Positions 11,568 through 34,339 of a DNA stretch of 46,221 bases are shown one piece after another. Source of the stretch: an uncultured Sphingosinicella sp. (lineage in GTDB: Bacteria; Pseudomonadota; Alphaproteobacteria; Sphingomonadales; Sphingomonadaceae); contig NZ_CADCWD010000072.1 in NCBI RefSeq assembly GCF_902806315.1, positions 1 to 46,221 of the forward strand, given 5' to 3'. A model generated the notes under the pieces. It made no database searches. It was not told the origin of the DNA and saw only the letters and a program-made list of their open reading frames with translations. Each line of letters begins with the position of its first letter. Position 1 is the first letter of the stretch. The translations under genes and the position numbers were made by a program.

Positions 11568-11655
11568 CGTCATCCCCGCGAAAGCGGGGATCCCGCTTCT
11601 GCTCCGTGGCGACGATGTAAGAAGAAGCGGGATTCCCGCTTTCGCGGGAATGACG
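11568..11655. repeat. ORF-less dyad of the GIY-YIG-associated repeat (family B)
   Basis: Two 33-nt inverted arms, 11568-11600 and 11623-11655, with a 22-nt centre. Each arm reads CGTC, then a stem ATTCCCGC or ATCCCCGC closed by a GAAA loop, then CCCGCTTCT. The arms differ only at two positions that pair with each other (T-A in one, C-G in the other), a compensatory change that supports hairpin formation. The arms are the same as those bounding the GIY-YIG gene at 33958-34339. It sits 29 nt after the oxygenase stop. Confidence 0.9.
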
Positions 11656-33957: not shown

Positions 33958-33987
33958 CGTCATTCCCGCGAAAGCGGGAATCCCGCT
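33958..33987 (+). repeat. Left arm, family B repeat
   Basis: 30 nt: CGTC, stem ATTCCCGC-GAAA-GCGGGAAT, then CCCGCT. It can fold as an 8-bp hairpin with GAAA loop. Confidence 0.85.
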
Positions 33988-34004
33988 GCCTTCGGGCGGC
34001 TGAG

Positions 34005-34298
34005 ATGCGAGGCGGCTGGCTCTATATGATGGCGGACCGGTATCGCGGCACGATCTACACCGGCGTCACGGCGGACATCGCCAGGCGTTCGTACCAGCAC
34101 CGCAGTGGGACTGGATCAAGATTTGTTAAGAGATATGACCTGCTCCGGCTGGTCCACGTGAAGCATTTTGATCGAATAGACGAGGCGATTGCGCGCGAGA
34201 AGGCGATCAAGAAGTGGCGTCGCGAGTGGAAGATAGAGCTTATCGAACGTGCCAATCCGGATTGGAATGACCTCTTCCCGCATGTGGTGGGTAGTTGA
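34005..34298 (+). CDS. Small GIY-YIG endonuclease-domain protein
   Basis: Single-domain nuclease of 97 residues, Uri/UPF0213-like. The two signature strands are present in variant form: GWLYMM (GIY position) and TIYTGVTADIARRSYQHRSG (YIG position, with the catalytic Arg in ARR). The conserved Glu lies in AIAREKAIKKWRREWKIELI, and the family ending NPDWNDLF is intact. Length is complete for this group. Codon use is less GC-rich than in the genes around it. It is enclosed by inverted repeat arms. Such proteins are frequent and multicopy in alphaproteobacteria; the biological role is not established. It could nick the arms, by analogy with RAYT proteins on REP sequences (inference). Confidence 0.88.
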   Translation: MRGGWLYMMADRYRGTIYTGVTADIARRSYQHRSGTGSRFVKRYDLLRLVHVKHFDRIDEAIAREKAIKKWRREWKIELIERANPDWNDLFPHVVGS

Positions 34299-34308
34299 GA
34301 ACAGAAGA

Positions 34309-34339
34309 AGCGGGAATTCCCGCTTTCGCGGGAATGACG
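34309..34339 (-). repeat. Right arm, family B repeat
   Basis: 31 nt, reverse complement of the left arm with one extra T after the stem. Ends GGGAATGACG. Same 8-bp GAAA hairpin on the minus strand. Confidence 0.85.

Follow-up and report, generated by a model that had tools for sequence, protein, structure and literature searches.

A gene for a GIY-YIG nuclease lies between two outward-facing, CGTC-tagged hairpins at positions 33958-34339 of the window (the whole stretch of 46,221 nucleotides analysed here, from an uncultured Sphingosinicella sp.), and both hairpins are members of the CGTC REPs (Table 1). The product of ORF 34005-34298 matches PF01541, and PF01541 only, with an E value of 6.2e-14, and the GC content over the ORF is 0.53-0.585 in 200-bp windows, against mostly 0.62-0.74 in its neighbours. 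The arms share 27 nt (33958-33984 on the forward strand and 34313-34339 on the reverse strand), which are 96% complementary and 328 nt apart and, together with a common inner CCCGCT, come to 30 and 31 nt; each arm is composed of CGTC, an 8-bp stem and a GAAA loop and, folded as single-stranded DNA, reaches -9.1 kcal/mol (z -3.67 and -3.81). An earlier note on this DNA had described a GIY-YIG gene of lowered GC, enclosed by inverted arms of 30 and 31 nt that each consist of CGTC and a GAAA-capped stem, and it was right in these respects, coordinates included.

Table 1. Features of the GIY-YIG unit and of a related REP pair in the window
Feature	Position	Strand	Remarks
Left arm	33958..33987	+	same terminal unit as other REPs of the genome
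Left arm, parts	CGTC tag 33958-33961; stem 33962-33969 / 33974-33981; GAAA loop 33970-33973; inner tail CCCGCT 33982-33987		
GIY-YIG nuclease gene, 97 aa	34005..34298	+	PF01541; invariant residues; pN far below pS in 5/5 comparisons
Right arm, inverted	34309..34339	-	CGTC tag 34339-34336; stem and GAAA loop to 34316; inner tail TCCCGCT
Gene-less REP pair (REPIN-like)	11568..11655	.	two outward-facing CGTC hairpins, family of the arms of the 34005-34298 gene

A 23-nt hairpin pattern, searched with at most three mismatches, has four matches in the window, compared with 0.00 expected from shuffles, and 26 in the whole genome assembly (2.69 Mb in 97 contigs), where the reversed-pattern control gives 0. 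Two of the four window matches form the gene-less pair listed last in Table 1, which the earlier note had overlooked and which is probably a non-autonomous relative of the GIY-YIG unit. The 16 other REP loci of this genome comprise 11 outward-facing pairs, whose hairpins are separated by 32-58 nt, and five singles, and the inner CCCGCT that the gene unit has at each end is present on 26 of the 27 ends of these loci. Because they carry the same inner CCCGCT ends, the REP pairs look like gene-less versions of the unit, much as REPINs relate to RAYT units. A single REP at L168 (G000:C55:99480-99930) has a CGTC tag on both sides, comparable to the solo palindromes of Sphingobium described below, and is possibly a collapsed pair.

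CGTC REPs are a known repeat superfamily, the members of which 'apparently lack a dedicated transposase' according to the parts of the paper by Di Nocera et al. (2013; PMC3733652) that deal with them. The same parts describe the CGTC-1 REPs, which include the Neisseria dRS3 repeats, as a CGTC tag followed by an 8-bp stem opening with AT, a 4-nt loop and a short unpaired tail, mostly CCA; these units occur mostly as head-to-head pairs and have an alphaproteobacterial centre of distribution, sphingomonads included (PMC3733652). RAYT genes flanked by CGTC units were not found by these authors, and the parts of their paper on CGTC REPs contain no mention of GIY-YIG (PMC3733652). The window arms resemble CGTC-1 REPs in their unpaired CGTC tag, AT-opening 8-bp stem and 4-nt loop, as well as in being multi-copy and mostly head-to-head dimers (26 genome matches; 11/16 other loci paired), but differ in their tail, which is CCC instead of the usual CCA; in our collection, the tail is CCA in 177 of 257 arms.

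Residues Y7, G15, Y18, G20, R28, H32, E65 and N84 of the window protein are invariant in 14 aligned homologs, and Y7, Y18, R28, H32, E65 and N84 are invariant also in 29 aligned homologs; we take Y7, Y18, R28, E65 and N84, together with H32, to be the GIY-YIG catalytic positions. In five comparisons, pN was 0.15-0.24 and pS 0.55-0.79, and the gene is under strong purifying selection. By profile, the closest matches among solved structures are 1zg2 (1.8e-9) and 1ywl (1.1e-5), which are both UPF0213 proteins, and the UPF0213/YhbQ-type single-domain GIY-YIG proteins belong to the same fold family as the window protein.

Among 118 related genomes, 65 contain homologs at E<=1e-10, with 131 matches between them, and the best 91 of the 131 matches yielded 92 tblastn records, 89 of which have full flanks. 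An arm was defined, here and in the distant set below, as a correctly oriented CGTC or TGTC hairpin within about 180 nt. By this definition, 79 of the 89 homologs from the best 91 matches have one arm or more (63 have one upstream, 72 have one downstream and 56 have both), compared with 2/89 and 4/89 in far control windows, where no homolog has hairpins on both sides. When only perfect stems of at least 8 bp are counted in the same 89 homologs, arms are present upstream in 50, downstream in 51, on both sides in 36 and on either side in 65, versus 0 and 3 in the far windows. A distant set, found across bacteria with a Neisseria protein and made up of the best 80 of 558 candidates, 78 of them with full flanks, has arms upstream in 44, downstream in 54, on both sides in 36 and on either side in 62/78, and the far windows contain 1/71 and 0/72; its record titles name several Pseudomonadota classes, Planctomycetota, Anaerolineae, Lentisphaeria and Kapaibacterium, although many are MAGs and single assignments may be wrong. 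That homologs are flanked by CGTC-hairpin arms beyond chance, which the earlier note had set out in advance as its test, is thus borne out in both sets.

Hairpins of the opposite orientation are also common near the genes of the relatives (27/89 upstream, 32/89 downstream and 17 on both sides, from the best 91 of 131 matches). They are mostly accompanied by a correctly oriented arm (22/27 upstream and 27/32 downstream), so that the arms are often part of REP pairs. The arm search found none at 10 of the 89 homologs (best 91 of 131 matches), nor at two of the rhizobial plasmid loci examined, L150 and L326. In the same relatives, UPF0213-type single-domain genes are without arms, in contrast to genes of the window type: such a hairpin is present at 1/30 (30 of the 41 listed matches), and this sole hairpin is not REP-like in appearance. 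The link is therefore specific to one GIY-YIG type and does not extend to small nuclease genes generally.

A Neisseria gonorrhoeae homolog shares 40% identity with the window protein and has seven CGTC-1/dRS3 hairpins, in mixed orientation, within 1 kb. In Sinorhizobium meliloti, arms are present at the gene and that record contains only four REP matches, all close to it, which leaves no population of REPs for comparison. Two of the records filed as plasmids look chromosomal, namely L147 (NZ_CP119142.1), 2.17 Mb of Neisseria gonorrhoeae, and L325 (CP090106.1), the 3.7 Mb 'pSymB' of Sinorhizobium meliloti with gltA and lpxB. The element is present in Rhizobium CIAT894 as well, with an IS4 transposase gene as its left neighbour and hence no clean empty site. 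A tandem array at L049 (G092:C5:158250-160700) contains two GIY-YIG homologs in a duplication of roughly 600 bp and further direct repeats of about 100 bp; no CGTC arm was found at this array.

The pairing of protein and repeat was analysed in 192 records representing 190 loci (105 from relatives, 5 from plasmids and 80 from the distant set), of which 101 have both arms and 156 at least one. Within a locus, the two arms differ by a mean of 2.05 edits and are identical in 37 of the 101 pairs, compared with 7.84 edits when the partners are shuffled (minimum over 10000 shuffles, 6.50). Protein distance correlates with arm distance (r 0.31; 0/2000 permutations as high). For copies that share a genome with other armed copies, the arms resemble those of the closest protein in a different genome more than those of the other copies in 50 of 61 cases, with one tie and the reverse in 10. 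On the protein tree, 16 changes of loop class are counted over 150 rows, compared with a mean of 44.4 and a minimum of 36 after shuffling; for the stem-loop family, 21 changes are counted over 127 rows (without rare families and mixed loci), compared with 55.4 and a minimum of 51. The arm family follows the protein, not the host genome.

Copy number varies along with this pairing. The median number of family-A REPs is 7 in the 65 genomes with a homolog versus 0 in the 53 without. For families A, B and C, the cognate family, with the gene's own arms removed, has a median of 27, 10 and 11 copies (21, 13 and 12 genomes), versus 2.5, 1 and 1 where the gene has other arms or none (36, 44 and 45 genomes); the corresponding p-values (5e-5, 9e-4 and 3e-4) are indicative, because related species are not independent. 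The comparison covers the 57 genomes with fetched loci. In 24 of the 26 genomes with arms of exactly one of these families, this cognate family outnumbers the other two tested. Genomes with at least 20 family-A REPs have a GIY-YIG homolog in 22/24 cases and Y1_Tnp, the domain of RAYTs, in 6/24. A profile search at E<=0.001 found no homolog in two REP-rich genomes, G043 (26 REPs) and G079 (66 REPs), nor in G057, G083 and G115 (17, 11 and 12 REPs). A specific pairing of the GIY-YIG protein with its repeat family is well supported by these sequence comparisons.

The locus is not fixed, in line with the mobile unit that the earlier note had proposed, and unfilled sites exist. At the site after qor, the gene is present in two of 25 genomes of the genus (the window's own and G021), a gene-less CGTC hairpin in three and neither in 20; a 26th genome, G011, gave no match to the query. 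Similarity to G021, which has both qor and the element, ends exactly at the right tag, 34339, and the most similar copies in G018 and G020 are located away from their qor gene. On Sphingobium plasmids, the interval between fnrL and a response regulator gene is filled in TomTYG46, MM7A, MM15 and TYG73 (aligned) and in three more by listing, the TYG73 copy having a one-base deletion, and TYG72, TYG65 and S. herbicidovorans lack such a REP at this interval. TomTYG64 and TomTYG74 have one palindrome, tagged on both sides, at the interval, and this solo equals the filled allele minus the stretch between the 8-bp ACCCCGGG direct repeat of both arms. In TomTYG74, a gene-less REP pair has collapsed into a double-tagged solo too. 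Deletion through the stems is thus a regular route of exit; double-tagged solos could also be targets, and some unfilled sites may be losses. On Shinella plasmids, an orthologous site is filled in two and unfilled in three. These plasmid comparisons gave presence or absence and solo products; neither a target duplication nor a clean insertion junction was obtained.

Next to a REP pair in two Sphingobium plasmids (L281, about 1590-1697, and L285, about 1591-1695) lies an inverted repeat of roughly 100 bp (AGAGCGCGC... / ...GATGCTCTA), which is found in TomTYG73 and TomTYG46, is absent at the same site of TomMM7A and is another short mobile repeat; the apparent 100-bp difference beside two Sphingobium REP pairs is this other kind of inverted repeat and not a REP. 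In Shinella (L149 and L156-L159), the intergenic stretch after an amidohydrolase gene contains several well-conserved blocks without annotated feature, which could be RNA or regulatory elements.

Copies of the unit also occur within one genome. In G046, 458-bp copies that are 457/458 identical (99.8%) lie at two unrelated loci (L123 622-1079 and L124 714-1171), and G072 has 420-bp copies that are 90% identical. Identity continues past the tags by 25 and 46 bp in G046 and by 12 and 22 bp in G072, so the unit that moves may not end at the arms. The GIY-YIG gene has the same frameshift in both G046 copies, so that this copy could not move by means of its own product; another agent, perhaps a sister enzyme, or recombination moved it. 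The sequence shared by L123 and L124 ends in stretches containing GCGGAC/GTCCGC.

We consider it fairly probable that the stretch 33958-34339 represents a mobile element akin to a REPtron and belonging to the CGTC REP superfamily, with the GIY-YIG nuclease as its enzyme. The sequences show the architecture, the association across bacteria, the matching of arm to arm and of arm to protein, the link of each family to its copy number, the site polymorphism, a recent intragenomic duplication and the purifying selection on the gene. Like the RAYT (TnpA-REP) REPtrons and their REPINs, the unit combines an enzyme gene between inverted REPs of the family that the genome itself carries, further short REP pairs at other places in that genome, and a family-specific match of enzyme to repeat. 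The comparison with RAYT units made in the earlier note therefore holds for the layout but not for the enzyme, as that note had itself said: RAYT REPtrons encode a Y1/HUH tyrosine transposase and have a GTAG-type REP, whereas the window unit has a GIY-YIG nuclease and a CGTC tag. GIY-YIG homing endonucleases likewise contain a nuclease domain that could favour copying of its own gene, but the window unit is without an intron or intein and without a separate DNA-binding domain, and it is flanked by hairpin repeats.

In the mechanism that we infer, an arm would fold into a hairpin when the DNA is single-stranded (on the lagging-strand template, or during repair or uptake), and the GIY-YIG protein, recognising the hairpins of its own REP family by their tag, stem and loop, would make a hydrolytic nick at the hairpin or next to it. 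The nick would drive the spread of the repeats: the break would be repaired or joined using REP-bearing DNA, by which the gene-carrying unit or, in trans, the short REP pairs (REPINs) with common ends would be copied. Cleavage is suggested by the fold family and by the Ssn proteins, members of the GIY-YIG superfamily that cut single strands site-specifically, that reportedly act on a Neisseria repeat and for which a 2025 report in Nature Communications is said to treat cleavage and transformation. The copying step is a conjecture, and because GIY-YIG enzymes are not known to form a covalent intermediate, the joining step is without a demonstrated agent. Ssn, as reported, is like the window protein small, of the GIY-YIG type and linked to a repeat of high copy number, and the Neisseria homolog described above is a possible counterpart of the published Ssn. 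The earlier note had known of no description of GIY-YIG proteins as repeat-mobilising enzymes; this agrees with the open-access literature, in which no paper joining GIY-YIG proteins and REPs was found (subscription and other-licence papers are outside this scope), but is tempered by the reported Ssn work. Already known are the repeats and, for RAYTs, the REPtron layout, and the Ssn paper probably covers part of the enzymology.

The protein could also be a repeat-specific single-strand nuclease with a host function, for example limiting the uptake or recombination of repeat-bearing DNA, as is said of Ssn, in which case the arms would be autoregulatory or accumulated targets and the REPs would spread otherwise. 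The strong purifying selection, the hairpins of mixed orientation around the Neisseria gonorrhoeae homolog and the reported Ssn work fit such a function, and the link between gene and repeat family would be expected here too; a host function does not lead one to expect the regular pair of outward arms close against the gene, the REP pairs with the inner ends of the element, loci that change between species or a unit duplicated within a genome, and we regard it as possible rather than probable. Homing-like behaviour, in which a solo REP is cut by the nuclease and then receives the gene by copying from a filled unit, would make the solo a homing site and not a remnant. It agrees with the solo of TomTYG64 and TomTYG74 being the filled allele minus the stretch between the 8-bp repeats, but slippage deletion would leave an identical solo, and the gene-less pair of TomTYG74 that collapsed to such a solo favours deletion; we consider homing unlikely.

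That a RAYT or other tyrosine transposase moves the REPs, and that the GIY-YIG gene was captured between two of them, is suggested by the layout, which is like that of RAYT-REPtrons (PMC3733652, in the parts on these repeats), and by Y1_Tnp being present in 32/118 genomes. Y1_Tnp is absent from the window's genome, however, and its presence is unrelated to REP number (6/24 REP-rich and 26/94 REP-poor genomes; Fisher p 1.0), which led us to reject this candidate; arm families go with the GIY-YIG protein, Di Nocera et al., in the parts of their paper on CGTC REPs, found no RAYT gene with CGTC units at its sides (PMC3733652), and capture between RAYT-driven repeats is very improbable. Chance or passive accumulation, with the gene merely sitting in a REP-rich spot, could appeal to REPs being intergenic anyway and to the opposite-oriented hairpins near the genes, but most of the latter accompany a correctly oriented arm, and the far windows of both homolog sets and the UPF0213-type control led to its rejection, so that its probability is close to nil.

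Returning to the mobile element with a GIY-YIG enzyme, we see an even chance that the mobilising enzymes still missing for the entire CGTC REP superfamily are GIY-YIG nucleases. These would then form a second, independently evolved class of REPtrons, spread over several phyla and using a hydrolytic nuclease and probably copy-repair, not HUH tyrosine-transposase chemistry. Few repeats of bacterial genomes are as common as REPs, and the CGTC half of these was left without an enzyme in 2013, judging from the parts of that paper on CGTC REPs (PMC3733652). With a small nuclease gene that accompanies each REP family, is matched to it specifically and predicts its copy number, the question of the enzyme becomes directly testable. 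If the proposal is true, populations of hairpin repeats evolved twice around unrelated nucleases that act on single strands; if the nuclease does not move REPs, a repeat-specific single-stranded DNA nuclease kept in many lineages would pose a puzzle of DNA uptake or genome stability.
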